DNA of 64,000 nucleotides from Dermacentor variabilis (taxonomy: Eukaryota; Arthropoda; Arachnida; Ixodida; Ixodidae), in contig NW_027460335.1 of assembly GCF_050947875.1 (NCBI RefSeq), forward strand, positions 8,695,928-8,759,927, read 5' to 3'. The notes below the pieces were generated by a model, which was not told the origin of the DNA, did not search any database, and worked only from the letters and a program-made list of their open reading frames with translations. The position numbers were made by a program, and so were the translations under genes. Shown here piece by piece: positions 12,312 through 61,990 of this stretch (positions are counted from its first letter, which is position 1; each line of letters starts with the position of its first letter).

Positions 12312-12455
12312 CGGCGGCTTAGTGGCTACGATGTCGTCGTTATGCTGTTGAGAAAGAGGTCGCGAGTTCTATTTGGGACTGCGATGGCACCGCTTTGTGA
12401 TTGGGGCTGAATGCGAAAACGCTCGTGTGCTAAAATTTAGCTGCACGAAAACCCA
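12312..12455 (+). repeat. Decayed tRNA-derived SINE
   Basis: Landmarks match the 41196 SINE in order: GGCTTAGTGGCTACGATG (box A region), GAGGTCGCGAGTTC, GGGGCTGAATGCGAAAACGCTCGTGTGCTAAAATTTA. Box B is mutated. It abuts the 5' end of the surviving gypsy gag fragment. Confidence 0.6.
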
Positions 12456-15575: not shown

Positions 15576-15653
15576 TAATAAGGACCGTCGTCCGTGTGAT
15601 GACTACAGTAGGTAAAATGCCATCACTAGCGATCAGCTGTGCCCGATACCGAA
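15576..15653 (+). pseudogene. Reverse transcriptase fragment between two insertions
   Basis: Encodes PNKDRRPCDDY then an in-frame stop and NAITSDQLCPIP, corresponding to the gypsy RT block that contains the CVDYRxLN motif. It is bounded on the left by the MITE and on the right by the hairpin element, whose 11-bp duplication CCGATACCGAA is the last piece of this fragment (15643-15653). Confidence 0.75.
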
Positions 15654-15815
15654 GCAGCAGAAGCTTGATGGGGGCGAGTTGGTTTTGCATACTTGATGAA
15701 AAGAGCGCTACGAAGACGCGGACTAAAAGAAAAACTTGTACGACGGACAAGCGCCTTGTCTGTCGTACATGTTGTTCTTTTAGTCCGCGTCTTCGTAGCG
15801 CTCTTTTCATCAAGT
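15654..15815 (+). mobile_element. Hairpin element A (new-type foldback), 162 bp, 11-bp TSD
   Basis: Flanked by perfect CCGATACCGAA repeats (15643-15653 and 15816-15826). The first 37 nt form an unpaired head with GGGCGAGTTGG (15672-15682). The rest (15691-15815) folds end to end: 62 pairs centred on 15753 with three mismatches and one G.T, and virtually no loop. It splits an RT reading frame that is continuous on either side once the insert and one duplication are ignored. No coding capacity, no poly-A tail, no pol III boxes seen. See copies at 23475, 49841 and 61594. Confidence 0.85.
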
Positions 15816-16188
15816 CCGATACCGAACATTGAGGAACGAATCGAAAGAGCGCTGCTAAATACATTTCAACTATAGACCTCGTGCGGGAATACTGGCAAGC
15901 TCCCTTTTCAGAAAGTGCCAGCCACTATGCCCCGTTTACCTCACCTGTAGGCACTTTTCGCCCTCAGCTTCGGGCTGTTGAACGCGTCGTTTAGCTTCTC
16001 TAAGTTAATGGATATTGTCTTAAAATAATTGCAGGAGTTCGCCTTGCCATGTCTTGATGATGTAGCAATTTTTGCGGACAACTGGGAACAGCACGTATCG
16101 CACCTCAAACAGGTGTTCTCATGGTTGAGGTAAGCTGGCTACTTATCTGGGCCATGTTGTCAGTCAGGGCACAATACGGCTGGCGAAG
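15816..16188 (+). pseudogene. Reverse transcriptase palm region (Gmr1-type element)
   Basis: Resumes with PIPNIEERIERAL and TIDLVREYWQAPFSESASHYAPF, the RT block containing the first catalytic Asp region (usually TLDL.RGYWQ). Frameshifts follow, with QEFALPCLDDVAIFADNWEQH near 16030-16090 for the usual YLDD box, here with Cys in place of Tyr. Broken by stops. Confidence 0.75.
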
Positions 16189-23474: not shown

Positions 23475-23644
23475 TAAGGGGAAACAGCGCGTGAGACGAG
23501 GCGAAAGAAACATCGATAACACATGCGCTGTGTTCTCGATGTGGTGTGTTGTCAGCGCATGTGTTGTCGATCTTTATTTTTCCTCGCCTTGCGCGCTGTT
23601 TCCCCTTCCAAATGGAACACCAACTATCCCAGCGTCGATGCCTT
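23475..23644 (-). mobile_element. Hairpin element D, about 170 bp
   Basis: The left arm starting AAGGGGAAACAGCGCG (23476) pairs with the right arm ending CGCTGTTTCCCCTT (23607). About 55 pairs close on a 22-nt loop (23531-23552), with roughly ten mismatches or G.T pairs. Reading the minus strand, an unpaired head with GGGATAGTTGG (23620-23630) precedes the hairpin. The flanks AGAAGCAGCAG (23465-23475) and AGGCACCAGCAG (about 23645-23656) are an imperfect direct repeat that may be the target duplication. The most diverged of the four copies. Confidence 0.7.
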
Positions 23645-25785
23645 AGGCACCAGCAGCCTGCGGGGCATATACCGCATGCCACCAGCGTCCTGGGTGACGA
23701 CAGACTGAAGAAGCAGCAGCGCGGTCACCTAGGCCGGCAGGCGCGCGCACCAGCTAAGGATAGCGGGGGCGAGAGATATGGACCGCGTGCCGGCTTCAGA
23801 GAGCGAGAGCGAGGATGATGTGGCGTCGCGATGTCCTCTACCTTCAAGCAACACATTGCACGCTACATGGAGCAGCAGGCGTTCCCTTTCGCCCACTAGC
23901 CCCCCTCGAGGGGCGCTGGCGACGTTGTCTTCCCAGCCAACGGATACTTAGGTGCTGTTTCGCTGCTACATACGCCGGCTTCTTTCGTTAAATGGTACAT
24001 TTGATGCTTTCGCATCAATACATCATGAGTACATCGCCGTTATTCCCATGCAAAAAAAAGGAAAAGAAACAAAAACAATGGAACTGCTTCATCGCTCGTG
24101 CCATGCGGTGAGGTAGTTGCTGGTTTTTGTGAAGCATACGTGCATTTCGCGCTCTTCCCACTACAAGCCTGTCTTTTACCCAACGTCGCGGTCCTCGTAG
24201 CACATTTCGAAGTTACGACTTTTTTGGCATCTTCTGACGATGGTCCGATCAGAAGTATAATGAACTTCACCGGTTCGTGAGGAGTCACCTCTTTCCAAGA
24301 GCGATCACTCTCAGTGTAGCTGGGAAACATCACAATTATGCCTCCAAGCATAATTGAATGTATTTTTACAGATAATGGTCTTCATTAAGTATGCCGTAAA
24401 GAGGAGCAAAAATAAATCTCGCCCCATTGTAAACTGCTTTGCACTAGCTGCTTCATACTGCAAGCCGAGATGGGCTCCGGGCGGCCTTCTTGGACTGAAC
24501 GAAAGTTTATTTTCTGCCGATGGCCGCACACCATGACCAAGCGAAGTATTCACGCTGAAGAATATAAGTATAGCTCTGAGGTCGTACAAGAAGATCGGCA
24601 AATAAGCGCACGAAGAAAGAGACCACTCAACACCGTAAACGAAACTCGCATATGAACAGCTGAGGATGTCATGGATTGGCTGAAAACATCGTCACTGTCA
24701 GGGTTTGAATCTGATTAGTCGTCATTTTCGGACTAGTAGCTCGAGTCCCGATCGATAAATTCAAGTGCGGGTGCAGCAGATTTCCGATCTGGCCGCTTTT
24801 CTCGCGGCGCAGCCACGAGCGACCGCACCATGGTAGCGACTTTCGATAAACGCGTAGTAAAATTTGGGATTTTGTAGAGAAGCAAATACCGAAACTTTTC
24901 GAGACTGGCTGAAAATGTCAGGTACACATGTGGAACATCCAGCTGACTTTCAGAAATGCACTTTGGTGGAATAAAACTACTAGTACTCCGAACAAAAGCT
25001 CGCTAACGTCATTTTCAGGTGGGTATCGATGCTCAGCTTTGTAAGAAGGCAAATCCTACGATAAAAAATTAATTCTTGACTTGCTGGGAGTCTCTTGATA
25101 AAAAAAAATATGTTACTGCACCGTAATCAAGAGTGCCATGCTTTTTATCTTGAGTGCGGCAGAGAATGAAAGCCACGCTCCTTTTCGCTGCAATACACAC
25201 GCATTAGTTCACAAAAAGGACTGTCAAAATTCACTACGTCTCAGGAGCCGTACTTATTTAAACTGATCCTAAATGTCCAATGTTTCGGCTAAATCCTGGA
25301 TGACGCTCAGTGCATTAGAAACGGCTCCACCATCTCAAAACAGCCCATTTAATGCATTGATCACCGGTGATCGATCTGAATTGGCGTGGTAACTAAAACA
25401 GTAATATGCAGAACGAAAATGAATATTTTTCGGAATAGCCCAAATCTACCCATTCTGTAAAAATATGAAATGACAACCCGCGGATCTCTCTCGCATTAGA
25501 TACTCATAGTTGACAAGAAAAATGAATTTATTTGCATATGATAAACATTTTTTACATAACAGTATAACGTGCTCGAACCCTTTCGGCCACGTATGCGGCC
25601 TCGCTCTGCCAACTTTTCTTCACTGAGGATCCGTTAGCGGCATTTTTTTTACCTTCCGTCGCACGCCACCGCGATTTTCGACCAGCCACCACAAGCTAAG
25701 CGAGCGAAAGCAGACCATTCGCAAACGTACGCGCCGCCCTCCTCAACCGGTTATCTATTTTCACTGCACTAGCTCGGACCCACCA
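23645..25785. other. No gene recognised
   Basis: About 2.1 kb of mixed composition. I see no domain, SINE promoter, long inverted repeat or exon with good splice sites. An ORF at 24040-24351 (-) ends in a Phe-rich run caused by an A-rich patch. Confidence 0.45.
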
Positions 25786-28415: not shown

Positions 28416-29254
28416 CTATGGGTAGGATAACACAGACGAGTCACAGTACGGCTTTTGACGCTGGACATGCACAATTTCACGTCCTCGACGGCGACGTTCC
28501 AAAGGTAGCTCGAGGGGTTCCACGATATACTTGACTAGAGACGTTTGGTTTATCACGCAGTATGGGCCATGGTACTTCGACGCGTGTTTCGGTGACAGTC
28601 CAGGGGTAGGGGCTGGAACCCAAAGCCACACCAGTGAGCCAGGAGCATAGGATACAGAGGCATGGGAAGTTTCTCGATGGTGCTTCTGGCGTTGCTGGTC
28701 TTCTGCCGTAAATGTACGGGATAGCTTGCGACACTGTTCTGCGTGTGCAGCAGCTCCGGATACGGTAGTGGTTTCCGTGGTGTCAGGGCGGTACGGAAGG
28801 ATAGTATCCATTGTGGAAGGTTCGCGTCAGTACAGGAGATAGAAGGGCGAAAATCCTGTGGTAGTCTGCCTGGCAGTAATATAAGCGTTGGCCAGAAATG
28901 TAGAACATGGTCCCATTTGCTTTGATCCGTTGCAACGTACATGGCCAGCATGTCACCAAGAGTGTGATTAAAGCGCTCGGTCATGCCATTAGTCTGCGGA
29001 GGATATGCAGTTGTGGTGCGATGAATGATGCAGTATTCTTTGAGGCGAGCCTCGATGACGTCAGAGAGCAAGACGCGGCCTCTGTCACTAAGTAATTGCC
29101 TGGGAGCTCCGTGGCGAAGGATGATGTGGCGTAGGAGAAACCAGGCGACGTAACGCGCAGAAGCGCTGGACAAATGGGAAGTTTCCGCATAGCGCGTAAG
29201 ATGTTCGACGGCCACGATTACCCAGCCATTGCCGTCTGATGTGGTCGGCGGAGG
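28416..29254 (-). pseudogene. Integrase core and C-terminus (minus-strand gypsy element)
   Basis: The catalytic core reads LTRYAETSHL, LLSDRGRVLLSD (second Asp) and AYPPQTNGMTERFNHTLG (catalytic Glu). At the position of the first catalytic Asp the frame has VAIEIY followed by a stop, so Asp appears as Glu and the frame is cut. The C-terminal part, YAPGSLVWLWVPAPTPG and SKYHGPYCVI, is a GPY-type module. A frameshift near 28800 separates the two. It would insert the cDNA; it is inactive here. Confidence 0.85.
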
Positions 29255-30290
29255 TCAATAAATTTCGATGGCTACTCGATCAAAAGCACGTGCTGGGCAA
29301 GGAAACGGCTGCAATGGGACTGTTGAACGACGAGGGGTACCTTTGCGACGTTGGCAAACGAGGCAGGAGCGGACATAATGGCGGATGAATCGATACATTC
29401 CCCGCCAGTAGTAACGAAGGCGTAGACGCGCGTACGTCTTTAGTACACCTGCATGCGCGCACTGGGGGTCGTCGCGGAATGCTGCACAAATATGCGAACG
29501 CAGATTCCGAGGGATGACAAGCAACCATTTGCGGCCATCCAGGAGGTAGTTACGACGGTACAAGAGCCCGTCGCGGATGGAAACGTGATGTGCTTGGCGA
29601 CGTAATGCGCGATTAGTAGTGGGTGTCGATGGGGTGGACAAGAAATTCAGCATGGACACGATCCATGGGTCTTTCTTCTGCGCCAGAAGAATGTCCGTGG
29701 CAGCAAGGGAAGGCTCGGACAATGAGGCCTTCGGGGAGCTAACCTCACCTGTTTGTGGCGAACGAGACAAGGCATCCGCATCCGAGTGTTTTCGGCCAGA
29801 ACGGTACAGCACTCGGATGTCGTACTCCTGCAGTCGAAGGGCCCATCGAGCAAGACGACCGGATCGTTCTTTTAGGGACGACAGCAAGCACAGCGAGGGG
29901 TGATCAGTTATCACGTCAAATGGGCGTCTATAGAGATCCGGAGGGAATTTGGTTACGGCCGCAATTATAGCCAGGCATTCTTTTTCTGTTACCGAATAGT
30001 TTGATTCGGGTTTAGTGGGTGCACGACTGGCAAAGGCGACGACATACTCATCGAAGCCAACCTTTCTCTGAGCGAGAACGGCACCAAGGCCGACGCCACT
30101 GGCATCCGTGTGTATTTCAGTTGGAGCGCTTGGGTCTAAATGGCGCAGGATTGGTGGTGACGTCAAGAGACGACGCAGCTTTCTGAATGCGGCATCACGA
30201 CCCGGTGACCAGGTCGAAAGGTTGTGGCCACCACTAAGAAGCTGCAGTAAAGGTGCTAAATGGTGGCAAAGTTGCGGATGAAACGGCGGA
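29255..30290 (-). pseudogene. RNase H and integrase zinc domain (minus-strand gypsy element)
   Basis: One open frame. The RNase H region has [15 protein letters not shown] (catalytic Asp), [10 protein letters not shown] (Glu), VITDHPSLC (Asp-His) and [12 protein letters not shown] (last Asp). Next comes the integrase H2C2 finger with [11 protein letters not shown] and [11 protein letters not shown]-side sequence joins through a frameshift near 30260-30290. All RNase H catalytic residues are kept, so decay is recent. Confidence 0.87.
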
Positions 30291-31245
30291 AGTATAACGC
30301 TAACCCAATGAAGCTGCGCAGTTCTTTGAAGGTCGTTGGTAGCGGAAACTGGGAAACAGCTTGTAGTTTTGCCGGACCAGACAGTACCGCTTCTTTCGAC
30401 ACAATATGGCCGAGGATGACCAGGTGCCGGGCAGTTACGCGACACTTCTTGAAGTTAAGCTGGGGGCCAGCATCGGCGATGCACTTGAGGACGCGTTCAT
30501 GTCGAAGTAAATGGGAAGGAAAGTCTGGTGAAAAGATGACGATGTCGTCCATATAACACTGGCATATCTGCGATTGGAGGCCACGCAAGATGTTGTCCTA
30601 CAGTTTTTCAAATGTGGCAGACGCGTTACACAGGCCAAATGGCATCGCGGTGAATTCAAATAAACCGTCAGGTGTGATGAAGGCCGTTCTTGGACGGTAT
30701 GACTCGGCCACTGGCAGTTGCCAGTTCCCGGATCGTACGTCTAGAGATGAGAAGAATTCGGCGCCTTGGAGGCATTCTAGTGCGTCGTCAATACGGGGTA
30801 GTGGATAAACATCCTTGCGGGTGATCTTATTGAGTCGCCGGTAGTCCACGCAAAAGCGAATTGTGCCATATTTCTTTTTGACCGGCACTACGGGAGAAGC
30901 CCAGGGACTGTGCGAAGGTTGTATGACGCCGCGTAGGAGCATGTCTCCAACTTGCTCAGCGCTGACGCTACGCTCAATGGCGGATACACGATACAGCCTG
31001 TGGCGTAAAGGCGCATGGTTGCCGGCGTCGATGTGGAGGACGACAGTGGAAGTACGGCCTAAGCGAGATTGTTGTAGGTGGAATGACGTGCGAAAGCGCT
31101 CAAGGAGATCGACGATCTGGGCGTCCTGACTTGGAGCGAGGTTGGGATCAATACACCGGGAAAATGGTTGGTCACACGGCGGCGTGTGAGGAGAAACTTG
31201 AAGGGCCAGATCGTCAACCGGAGGAGAAGCCGAGTCGTCAGGCAC
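30256..31245 (-). pseudogene. Reverse transcriptase (minus-strand gypsy element)
   Basis: The RT motifs are in order: PLRHRLYRVS, VIQPSHSPWASPVVPVKKK, IRFCVDYRRLNKITRKD, FFSSLDVRSGNWQLPV (first catalytic Asp), AFITPDGLFEFTAMPFGLCNA, and after one in-frame TAG at 30598-30600 the box CYMDDIVIFS. Then come NFKKCRV, LGHIVS and [16 protein letters not shown]. Apart from that stop codon and one downstream shift the domain is complete, with both catalytic motifs present. Residues around YMDD are Cys-Tyr-Met where gypsy usually has Tyr-Leu. Confidence 0.9.
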
Positions 31246-31860
31246 TCCGTAAAGGAAGCTTGTTTCAATTTCGTCAGCATAACCAAGACACTCATCGCGA
31301 AGCAGGCGAGCAGGGCAAGTAAATAGGCTCTATACATAAAGTGCGCTGGAACCTTGACGAATCGCGAGAAGGGCAAAGGAAGCAAGAAGGGATGACGGCG
31401 AGCAACAAGCTTAGACGGTGTGAAAAGAACTGTGGAGTCGGAAGACACAACGAAGGAAACGGGCACAAGTGCGGCAGAGTATAGAGGAATCTCGATGTCG
31501 GACGTGATGAGCACACGACCGGAAGCGTCATCATTATCTTCAAAAACGGTGTGGCCGAATGGCGACAGCGCGAGTTCAGCACGGGCACAATCTATAACGG
31601 CATGATTAGGGGACAGAAAGTCCCATCCTAAAATCATGGCATGGGACCAGTGAGGAAGAACAACGAACTCAACGTGGTATAAAGTGCCGCTTATAACACG
31701 CACGGTACACTTCCCGAAGTGTTCAATCGGCACTGAACTTGCTGTACGTAATGAAATGGCAGAATATGGCGTCGCGACTTCTGTAAGGTTAAGACGAAGC
31801 TGGTCCGAAATCACTGATATTGCTGCTCCCGTGTCTACAAGCGAATGAGCGGCAAAGTCT
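31059..31860 (-). pseudogene. Aspartic protease and linker (minus-strand gypsy element)
   Basis: LVDTGAAISVIS, with the catalytic DTGA encoded at 31835-31824, is followed by the flap region and MILGWDFL, the ILG motif of retrotransposon proteases. A linker with no domain leads to RT and overlaps it in another frame (31059-31245), so one frameshift is needed. Processes Gag-Pol in the particle. No stop within the protease core itself. Confidence 0.85.
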
Positions 31861-33282
31861 TCTGCATAAACTTCAAGGACGTTCGCAGGAAATAAATGAG
31901 GTCTTGAGGAGTTCGTTGAGATCGCAGTTCTTGCCTCCGGAACTGCGGTCCTTAGTTTTCATCTCGGATAGCTTCAGAGTGACGGATAAGCGGCGAAAGA
32001 GAATGCCGATGGGGAGACTGAGATCGGCGGGTATTGAAGGTTCGGCAAGCAGGAGGCGAGGCTTCGAAGTACTAAGCGGCAGAAGTGGAACGGGTCGGAG
32101 AGACGAAACCGTTGCCTTGTGCCCTCAGAGAATCCGAAGGATACCATCCGCGCCGGCGGCAAAGCCGTGCTACATGTCCAGGAAGGCCGCACGAATAACA
32201 GATAGGCCGGTTGTCAAGGTTGCGCCATGTATTGAGAACAGCGGGTGGAGACTGATGGAAACATTGGCGAGGTGGTTGCATGGGCTGCTGTGGCGGCCAG
32301 TAGCTGCTTGTACGTGCACATGTTGCCGCCGCTTGCGGAAGTGAGGGAAAGGCGCTGGTAAGTCTGGGTTGAATAGCTGCAGACGGAGGCCTTGGATTCG
32401 CGACAACGGCACCGCACGTAAGTGGAACAGGCGGTTGATCAGCAAGTGTTACGGCGTTAGCGACTTGTTGTTGTATCACCTGACGGAGATCGGTAGACAA
32501 GGGCGACTCTTACGCTGGACTGACTGACAGAAGAGCCACTTCTCGTACAAATTGCTTGATTTGGTCGAACGTTGCTGAACTACAAGGAGTAGCACTGACA
32601 CCATCACTCAGAGCTGAAGGCGCGACGTCCGGAGCGAGAGCGCGGCGCGTAGAAAGCCTTTGTTTGCGCAGCTCCTCATAGCTCTGGCAAAGCGTTGTGA
32701 GGTCGTTGACCGTCTGAGTAGTCTTTTCCAAGAGCATTTGGAAGGCGTCATCTTCTATGCCTTTCAAGACGTTGTTGAGCTTGTCATCTTCGGTCATATC
32801 TGGGTTGATACGCCGGCAAATGTCAACTACATGCTCAATATAGCTCGTAAATGTTTCGCCCTTTTGTTGGGCACGATAGCGAAGCTGTTGTTCAGCCCGA
32901 AGTTTCCGCACACCAGGGTGACCGAAGAGTTCATGAAGTCTCGTTCTGAATGCTGTCCAGCAGGAAAAGTCAGCCTCATGTTTGCGGAACCAAAGATGGG
33001 CGACTCCGGAAAGGTATAATGGTACGTAACCAAGCTTGAAAGCTTCAGTCTATTTGTTGTGGGCACTCACTCGGTTGTACGATGACAGCCAGTTCTCTAC
33101 GTCATGATCGTCAGTGCATTGAATATGGGAGGATCCCGTTGGCGTGGCGCACCAGGACAGACTACCGGAGGTGGTGCCTGGGGTGGATCGGTAGGACTAG
33201 TTTCCTGAGGCATGGGAGATGCAACAGGGACCGTCCGGCTTCGGAGTTCCATGTTTGCAAAAGGTCCAGCACCTTCCACCAA
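31861..33282 (-). pseudogene. gag (minus-strand gypsy element)
   Basis: Gag begins with [15 protein letters not shown] at 33251, shortly after the 5' LTR. Pieces at 32911-32510 contain RYRAQQKGETFTSYIEHVVD and INPDMTEDDKLNNVLKGI, the capsid-like part. The zinc knuckle CYSCGLPGHVARLC (CX2CX4HX4C) lies near 32200-32160. Frameshifts near 33050 and 32510 interrupt the frame. Gag packages the element RNA. Confidence 0.8.
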
Positions 33283-49749: not shown

Positions 49750-49840
49750 CACAGGCGAAGTTTGTTTTGTGATGACGTAGGGGTCTAGAAAACACGAGGA
49801 ACTTCCCAAACGAGGCATAAATACGGACGGGTGTCTAGAG
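49750..49840 (-). pseudogene. Gypsy integrase C-terminus, distal piece
   Basis: On the minus strand TPVRIYASFGKFL continues the integrase tail that is interrupted at 49841-50007. Decayed below about 49750. Confidence 0.45.
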
Positions 49841-50007
49841 TAGCAAGAGTAGCGATATGGGCTTGTTGGGGAATCAACAGGAACGCTTTTGATGCATCAC
49901 GAAACGTAACACGGACTCAAGCAAGCACATATAAAAAGACAAGCACTGTGTGCTGTCTTTTTATATGTACCTTCTTGTGTCCGTGTTACGTTTAGCGCTG
50001 CACCAAA
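49841..50007 (+). mobile_element. Hairpin element C, about 167 bp
   Basis: The head, with GGGCTTGTTGG at 49859-49869, is followed by a hairpin: 49902-49941 pairs with 49954-49993 (ACGTAACACGG / CCGTGTTACGT; ACATATAAAAAGAC / GTCTTTTTATATGT), about 40 pairs with five mismatches. Weaker pairing continues outward for about 8 bp. Imperfect flanking repeats GGTGTCTAGAG (49830-49840) and GGTATTCTAGAG (50008-50019). It splits a gypsy integrase tail on the minus strand at the motif VLLWTP (the Trp codon is now a stop). Confidence 0.78.
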
Positions 50008-50650
50008 GGTATTCTAGAGCAGGACCTCATCTCCTGGACGAAAGGAAAGACCACGGCAAGAGCGTTCGTAACATTGCTTGCTGTAATGTTTGGCTGGCCG
50101 CTGTATTGAGTTGAGCACGTTGACGATGTGGGTCAAGTCTGGGGCACACAGTTCTGATAGAGCAGTTCTTAGGCACATTCAAGAAAGTGGCCTGGATAGT
50201 AAATGTAGGCGGATGGCCGTAAACGAGGCAGGTAATTGAGTAATTGGTACTTCGCTGGGCAGCGGGGTTTGAGCAAACATCACAAATGGTAGAGTTATGT
50301 ACCAGTTCTTGAAGTCTGGTCCAACAAAAATCGATATCGTGTCAGTTAATACACGATGAAATCACTCTGTCAAGCAATTTGTTTGCTGGTGGTAGGTTGT
50401 CGTAGTCGTATACCTTGTGCGACAGGTTCTTGGTACTTTCTCGAGGATTGCGGATAGAAAAAATTGGCCCCGTTCTCTTAAAATGGCGCGAGGCGCTCCA
50501 TGGCGTAACACGATAGCTTCTAGAAAGAAGGTGTGAAGGTCTGACGCAGGGCCAGGGCGTAGAGGAGAGACCTCCGCGTAACGTGTGACATGTTCGACAG
50601 CAGTCACAATCCATCGATGACTTTCTGGTGTAATATGAAAAGGTCAAAAA
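50008..50650 (-). pseudogene. Gypsy integrase core and C-terminus
   Basis: The minus strand encodes VEHVTRYAEVSPL, LRHGAPRAILRERGQFFLSAI (second catalytic Asp replaced by Glu: RERG for the usual SDRG) and TYHQQTNCLTE (catalytic Glu kept). Nearer 50050 it has RGLSFRPGDEVLL. Stops and frameshifts are many. Related to, but distinct from, the element at 28222-33284. Confidence 0.75.
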
Positions 50651-61439: not shown

Positions 61440-61990
61440 GTTATAATATTACCTCCACGCGCACGGCCAGCGTGTGTTGATAAACGGCTTTTCGTTATTG
61501 CCGGTGAGTGTTCCGTCTTTCATACCACAAGGATCCGTACTCGGGTCAATATTATTCTTGCTTTTGTCAATAATTCCCCAATTGTATCCAGTCTCAATCG
61601 TCACTTACAGCGCATACATAGACGAGGGACAAAAAGGACGACGAAAATCAGCGCTTGTCTTCGTCGTCTTTTTTTTTCCCCTCGTCTATGTATGCGCTGT
61701 AAGTGACAATTGATACCAATGAACACCAACTAGCCCGTACCCCGACCTTGCTTCTGTATCCAGTCGACCACCAAGTCCTATGCCGGAGTCTGTGCATTGT
61801 ATTGCTAAGTCACATGCAGTAATGATGCACATGTTCTGCAGTGTGATACTGATGAAATTCTTTCTTGGTGTGATAAAGGAATGATGAGCCGAAATCCCTC
61901 AAAGTGTTACGATGTTAAATTCACGAACAAAAAGTTACAGTGACGTTTCACTTCGTGAATGCGGGTGACGCGCTAGCGTATACTGCACAC
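61440..61990 (+). pseudogene. LINE reverse transcriptase palm fragment split by a hairpin element
   Basis: VPSFIPQGSVLGSILFLLLS (motif PQGSVLGP) is read at 61500-61575. After the hairpin insert the frame resumes with SYAGVCALYC, where the catalytic FADD/YADD box has become YAGV, and then LQCDTDEILSWCDKGMM, RNPSKCYDVKFTNKKLQ. L2/CR1/Jockey-like. Dead, both by loss of the catalytic Asp pair and by the insertion. Confidence 0.8.
61594..61754 (-). mobile_element. Hairpin element B, 161 bp, 11-bp TSD
   Basis: Flanked by perfect TGTATCCAGTC repeats (61583-61593 and 61755-61765). The hairpin occupies 61594-61713 (the fold extends to 61591-61716), with near-perfect outer pairing (GTCACTTACAGCGCATACA / TGTATGCGCTGTAAGTGAC) and a small bulge near the tip. 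On the minus strand the head, with GGGCTAGTTGG (61736-61726), precedes the hairpin. Size, flank length and architecture match element A. Confidence 0.85.

Follow-up and report, generated by a model that had tools for sequence, protein, structure and literature searches.

The hairpins described in this work, four of which (copies A–D) lie in a 64,000-nucleotide stretch of Dermacentor variabilis DNA (the window), are almost certainly, each of them, minimal insertions of Penelope-like elements (PLEs), that is, PLE insertions reduced to two ends and the junction between them. Their parts would follow one another in the order target-site duplication, tail (antisense of codons 1 to about 12), antisense 5′ leader, sense leader up to the start codon, and second duplication. 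The explanation as a whole appears to us highly probable, its step of two cDNAs much less firmly so.

In a scan of the window for hairpins by paired 7-mers, with low-complexity stretches excluded, copies A–D took ranks 1–4, and the sequence GGGNNNGTTGG occurs in the window at four sites, on both strands, each of which is the head of one of them; by the patterns used, the head is absent from the other 21 hairpins of the scan list. The four loci of common plan that an earlier, sequence-only reading had picked out are therefore real. From head to hairpin centre, the four copies measure 79, 86, 89 and 89 nt. Copy A is preceded by its left target-site duplication, CCGATACCGAA (15643..15653), which is matched at 11 of 11 positions by the right one (15816..15826). 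Between the two lie, all on the forward strand, the head (15654..15690), assigned from its reading frame as the antisense PLE 'tail'; the left arm (15691..15751), which is the PLE 5′ leader in antisense; and the right arm (15755..15815), the leader in sense, which ends directly before the ATG position, as judged from the arm alignment and the end positions. These two arms agree at 58 of 61 positions. Copy D (61594..61754, reverse strand; arms alike at 51 of 57 positions) is flanked by the duplication GACTGGATACA, also perfect at 11 of 11, with TGTATCCAGTC at 61583..61593 and its partner at 61755–61765; the arm end at 61594 is flush with it, the head motif (61726–61736) reads EHQLARTPTLLL in antisense, and the nearest ATG is out of frame. 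In both A and D, the distance from the duplication to the start of the head motif is exactly 18 nt, and the other arm is flush with, or at most 3 nt from, the second duplication.

The remaining two window copies fall short of the PLE pattern, each in its own way. Copy C (49844..50014, forward strand), with arms at 49881–49941 and 49954–50014 that agree at 50 of 59 positions, has an imperfect duplication, TCTAGAGTAG (49834..49843) against TCTAGAGCAG (50013–50022, with a 2-nt overlap with the arm), alike at 9 of 10 positions; its head motif (49859–49869) has decayed, reads QQA and has no in-frame start codon. Copy B (23475..23650, reverse strand, outer limits approximate) has a head motif at 23620–23630, antisense to MEHQLSQRRC, and arms at 23476–23530 and 23553–23607 (47 of 55), and no convincing duplication was found for it, the best being 7 of 8. 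The earlier count of two perfect 11-bp flanking repeats and an imperfect one thus stands. Across the window copies, arms are only weakly alike: z is 2.7–3.8 in three of the four A–C arm pairs and about 3 in the pairs A5–D5 and A3–D5, and most other pairs score lower, many of them at the level of shuffled sequence. The arms of the window copies look like the leaders of different PLE families.

The head that the sequence-only reading had described as unpaired is indeed present, but it is protein-coding sequence in antisense, complementary to the opening ~12 codons of PLE frames (M..[HNY]QLA). In copy A, its reverse complement is ATG CAA AAC CAA CTC GCC CCC ATC AAG CTT CTG CTG (MQNQLAPIKLLL). In 36 of 47 non-redundant loci, to which 60 fetched loci had been collapsed, an in-frame ATG sought within six codons before QLA stands 2–4 codons ahead of CAA CTA GCC, as against 2 and 0 loci for the other frames; the presence of QLA on the other strand is true by construction in the fetched loci, and it was the surroundings that this frame test examined. 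The profile of the head frame over the 47 loci is M-x-x-[HNY]-Q-L-A-[QR]-Q-[RS]-[VI]-L-L. Freedom from stop codons further downstream, seen in 44, 25 and 41 of the 47 loci by frame, hardly separates the frames. Among 72 proteins, M..QLA stands near the start of two long PLE proteins that have a reverse transcriptase and are related to tick proteins; the 797-residue protein P0033 starts with MNQLACIATL, and the 816-residue P0049 has MIYQLAQRSVLL from residue 18. A protein search with translated copy A returned no match.

A coding copy, L063, ties these ends to a PLE protein. It runs in the order duplication CGGATAGCGGAA (12 bp, by eye), tail, 22-nt inverted arm, 296-residue sense frame, 3′ UTR, matching arm and duplication, and its ends are the same as those of the hairpins. 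This frame covers the C-terminal portion of a PLE protein and shares 94% identity with a section of P0002, a Dermacentor andersoni protein that contains RVT_1 (E 2.7e-11); a Pfam search with the frame itself found no family. RVT_1 was seen at E ≤0.1 in 21 of 21 relatives, with P0033 and P0006 under the Pfam cut-off. Partial models of P0002 and P0021 had a mean pLDDT of 74.9 and 83.0, respectively; the former matches the reverse transcriptases of retrons, group II introns and telomerase with low TM scores. For the C-terminal model of P0021, the top match is the catalytic GIY-YIG domain of I-TevI (probability 1.00, TM 0.73 by target, E 0.022), and a GIY-YIG endonuclease at the C-terminus of this relative is accordingly predicted by fold; the Pfam GIY-YIG model remained under its cut-off, with 3 of 21 relatives at E ≤0.1 and a best value of 0.01.

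PLE anatomy, as given in the portions of PMC3846280 and PMC11167929 available, comprises an inverted leader or pLTR, a tail that extends into the frame on one side, and short duplications. Of the features of endonuclease-bearing PLEs, the reverse transcriptase, the GIY-YIG domain (by fold), the inverted leader in head-to-head arrangement, the tail of 30–40 nt into the frame and the short duplications were all found and the hammerhead ribozyme was not: Rfam gave no hit of any kind in the window at the gathering score, and no hammerhead was detected in 14 loci at E ≤5. Hammerheads have been reported in several PLEs and do not define the group. The earlier remark that no named family with this structure is known finds no support, as the anatomy is that of PLEs and L063 combines the same ends with part of a PLE frame.

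That the family is dispersed, as had been surmised from the window, is supported by the 2.477-Gb D. variabilis assembly, which holds 19,736 exact GGGCTAGTTGGT heads (10,931 + 8,805) as against 66 for the reversed pattern. Sixty loci were fetched out of the first 75 head places listed, with 15 skipped; all 60 come from the 1.3–12.2 Mb part of contig C1 and form a non-random sample. Hairpins, defined by an arm alignment over the threshold, were present in 19 of the 60 (20 by an earlier criterion), and copies with long loops, such as L082 (73 nt), L087 (38 nt) and L075 (29 nt), were counted under both. Extrapolated from this non-random sample, hairpins with the exact motif would number about 6,000 genome-wide. 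A 200-kb sample drawn at regular places of the assembly contained, by the patterns used, a single element, L019, with the duplication GGAAAATATAT. The hairpin table comprises 67 loci, namely the 60 fetched ones, the four window copies, L019, L002 and L006 (L003–L005, L007–L009 and L030–L042 are absent from it), and 25 of the 67 have an arm alignment over the threshold. Fourteen of these 25 hairpins have a duplication score of at least 9, whereas random re-pairing of left and right flanks, repeated 200 times, yielded 0.04 such hairpins on average and never more than 1; the flanking repeats thus exceed chance. Called duplications are 8–13 bp long, most commonly 11 bp (6 of 18 calls).

Insertion ends cluster at two places near the start codon, each within a narrow range and some 36 nt from the other. 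Fifteen rows have an in-frame ATG together with a called duplication, two of them (L045 and L078) being a single insertion. Their right ends range from 5 nt upstream of the ATG to 6 nt inside the frame, and their left ends lie 25–47 nt into it (mean 36), which resembles the published PLE tail. Measured from the head motif, the hairpin tips have positions of +63 to +129 (median 86). Longer copies contain CAACTG or a near form in 19 of 41 cases, mostly at +80 to +106 from the head motif, and in 14 of the 41 this motif is followed by TTTATT within 35 nt, as compared with 11 of 2,000 control windows; the 41 copies were kept with their redundancy, and six of the 14 are one repeat. Read in sense, this is the polyadenylation signal AATAAA followed by an initiator-like CAGTTG. 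Because this region lies at about the same distance in the longer copies, the hairpin tip is probably the 5′ end of the mRNA, as far as sequence can tell.

The arms are formed anew at each insertion and are not inherited as a hairpin. The mean identity of arms is 0.91 within copies (25 rows) and 0.61 between them (300 pairs), in line with the earlier remark that arms are alike within a copy and share little between copies, and in the best cases the arms are perfect (89 of 89 positions in L056, 63 of 63 in L071, 66 of 66 in L084). Hairpins that are copied as hairpins would pass on the differences between their arms. Yet six pairs, each of two copies from one family that differ in their flanks, have 34 copy-specific sites, at which both arms agree and the copies differ, and only 1 arm-specific or crossed site, along with 35 single-arm changes. 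In the control pair L045/L078, which is one insertion duplicated together with its flanks (both are among the 25 hairpins and excluded from the 34-to-1 count), copy-specific sites number 0, arm-specific sites 3 and single-arm changes 4. These counts argue that the template of each hairpin had a single arm, and the proposal that one arm is remade at each insertion holds; the snap-back copying suggested as its route is less favoured, given the 5 of 25 hairpins that are loop-less.

How two arms might arise from one template can be pictured as follows. The PLE protein would make a staggered cut of about 11 nt in the target, and the 3′ ends freed on both strands would each prime reverse transcription at an internal site of a PLE mRNA. 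Synthesis would begin around codon 12 for one cDNA and at the ATG for its partner, and would run in either case as far as the 5′ end of the mRNA; the resulting antisense strands, identical in sequence, would then be joined at their 3′ ends, sometimes after annealing at a short palindrome such as GGCGCC. We lean slightly towards such a two-cDNA step, and the fuller proposal, by which the hairpins are the end products of two-sided target-primed reverse transcription from different start sites, joined near the mRNA 5′ end, is in our estimate evenly balanced. Support for it comes from the five loop-less palindromes among the 25 hairpins, centred on CTGCAG, ACATGT, GGCGCC (twice) and GCGC, because a single self-folding strand needs a loop and loop-less junctions therefore favour two annealing strands. 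Against it stand the loops of at least 14 nt in 10 of the 25 hairpins; the GCGC at the tips of 18 of the 25 (control 0.14), which may reflect shared ancestry; and L044, which has head sequence at both ends (MNQLAQARVL on the left; ATGGACCAACTAGGCC, MDQLG, on the right), in which no duplication was found and which looks as if both cDNAs had begun at the distal site. The start site of PAc, moreover, shows no strand difference in the portions of PMC11167929 available.

The two-cDNA joining is preferred to snap-back copying, the possible though clearly less probable route in which a PLE-derived strand folds at its 3′ end, primes the second arm on itself and halts some 40 nt short of the opposite end. 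A similar route, self-priming on an antisense template, has been proposed for rotifer PLEs, and the palindromes at inverted junctions are so read in the available part of PMC3846280. Snap-back accounts for the identity of arms within a copy and for the near absence of inherited arm differences, and a loop of at least 1 nt is present in 20 of the 25 hairpins. The loop-less palindromes, however, are better suited to two annealing strands, and a stop near the start codon, which self-priming does not explain by itself, is explained by two start sites of reverse transcription; snap-back as the sole cause was dropped. Inverted copies, palindromic junctions and an optional tail have been described for PLEs, while the steps of integration that follow first-strand synthesis await demonstration according to the authors of the in vitro work, in the portions of PMC11167929 available. 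From a well-kept hairpin one can read off the two start sites, the stagger of the cuts and the joining point, and rival models can be scored on such hairpins by counting. If the two-sided target-primed reading is true, a large set of footprints of different ages records PLE integration end by end.

It is improbable that the hairpins arose from longer inverted PLE copies by decay, with loss of the middle through recombination. Longer inverted copies do exist, as in L064, a longer version of the hairpin in which a PLE 3′ end is present as two halves of 345 nt, placed head to head with 85.5% identity, and L003, L033 and L039 look rearranged; yet the tips cluster about where the longer copies have their antisense CAGTTG/AATAAA region, and the best copies are perfect across 63–89 nt, and this reading was dropped. 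Still less probable is a MITE or foldback DNA transposon, which would make the hairpin the unit that moves, with a transposase acting in trans to copy it. The elements are short, palindromic and of high copy number, with duplications commonest at 11 bp, and foldback/MULE elements such as Tm1 are likewise palindromic, with duplications near this length. The inverted repeats of the latter, however, are terminal and inherited, whereas one end of the tick hairpins is a coding tail, unpaired and with no terminal inverted repeat, the heads are in frame with PLE N-termini, and the arms are made anew, with 1 arm-specific site for 34 copy-specific ones and inheritance seen in the duplicated L045/L078 (3 and 0); this reading, too, was dropped. 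A tRNA-like SINE, with the head as the A box of a pol III promoter, is scarcely credible and was dropped: the head motif lies near the 5′ end, duplications are present, and TGGGCTAGTTGG resembles the A box (TRGYNNARNNGG), but conservation tracks the codons of the antisense frame and pol III would be likely to terminate at the T-runs inside the arms; ARAGORN found no tRNA genes in the window. Helitrons are not known to make a target-site duplication, and a Helitron was rejected since duplications are present.

Several known systems resemble the tick hairpins in part. In the twin priming of L1, two primed cDNAs can yield an inverted insertion, with the second priming on an internal L1 site, so that different parts of the RNA are joined, whereas both arms of the tick hairpins copy the same leader. 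The Penelope elements of the rotifer Adineta vaga, such as Pen2a_Av, are a second case: as far as the available part of PMC3846280 goes, they have inverted pLTRs, one of which carries a 31-bp extension, a tail into the frame, duplications of 8–10 bp in the cases quoted, palindromes at inverted junctions, and solo pLTRs. The pLTRs quoted there are, however, about 180–220 bp long and mostly accompanied by a reading frame, whereas the tick hairpins have arms of about 40–90 nt with nothing between them and are present in many copies. PAc, a Poseidon element of Anolis carolinensis, is also alike in the portions of PMC11167929 available, with internal initiation of reverse transcription near the start of the frame, a tail that is the stretch between two reverse-transcription start sites, and a protein that cuts and extends both target strands in vitro. 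It differs in that its commonest start lies 111–118 nt into the frame and in that it carries a hammerhead ribozyme, whereas the tick hairpins end at the ATG and at about codon 12 and none was found with them.

Among tick proteins, LOC129387829 of D. andersoni, listed as uncharacterised, contains RVT_1 and is 94% identical to the L063 frame, and the 'putative tick transposon ovary overexpressed' of Rhipicephalus microplus is of PLE type, also with RVT_1; no description of hairpin insertions was seen with either of the two. PLEs with inverted ends are thus already known, and it is the many frameless leader hairpins and the test of arm inheritance that appear to be new: neither frameless leader hairpins at this copy number nor a test of PLE arm inheritance was found in the open-access literature searched.

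A literature search for the head motif led to one paper, a small-RNA study of R. microplus (searches with arm motifs gave only unrelated-looking papers). In Table 3 of that study (PMC9611014, as available in part), the 'novel miRNA' m0027 from eggs, TGGGCTAGTTGGTATGGCAT, equals the antisense of the PLE frame start MPYQLA, as in L053–L055, and m0027 is named among the miRNAs for which RT-qPCR and sequencing did not agree. It probably represents a small RNA from a PLE, not a miRNA. Perfect PLE hairpins can pass as miRNA precursors: the stems of L056 and L057 match miRNA families under the Rfam cut-offs, and L056 (121–236), a perfect 89-bp PLE hairpin, resembles several unrelated miRNA precursor families of Rfam, likewise under their cut-offs. 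Copies like L056 could be a source of double-stranded RNA.

Several further observations concern the repeats around these elements. In viral contigs, there was one match, lacking a hairpin by eye, and no match to a word of a tick repeat; in genome contigs, no relative of a LINE fragment of the window was found. L002, L005, L007–L009 and nine of L030–L040, in which the duplication is the same or nearly the same, contain a PLE hairpin insertion inside a larger multiplied repeat. In L003 (1471–1783), the hairpin between AATGAACAAGA flanks contains what looks like the 3′ end of a LINE as well as a poly-G run; we read this as a chimeric insertion, a template jump or a later insertion. In the window itself, positions 2–110 and 216–324 form a 109-nt inverted repeat, 78% complementary and with a 105-nt spacer, which is probably a different transposon, and 28416–33049 (reverse strand) contains frames that by eye resemble an LTR-type (gypsy-like) retroelement. 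Ruka, according to the available part of PMC3160391, is a tick SINE; three repeat copies that start with AATGCGAAAAC, at 12410, 41293 and 47272 of the window, are SINE-like.
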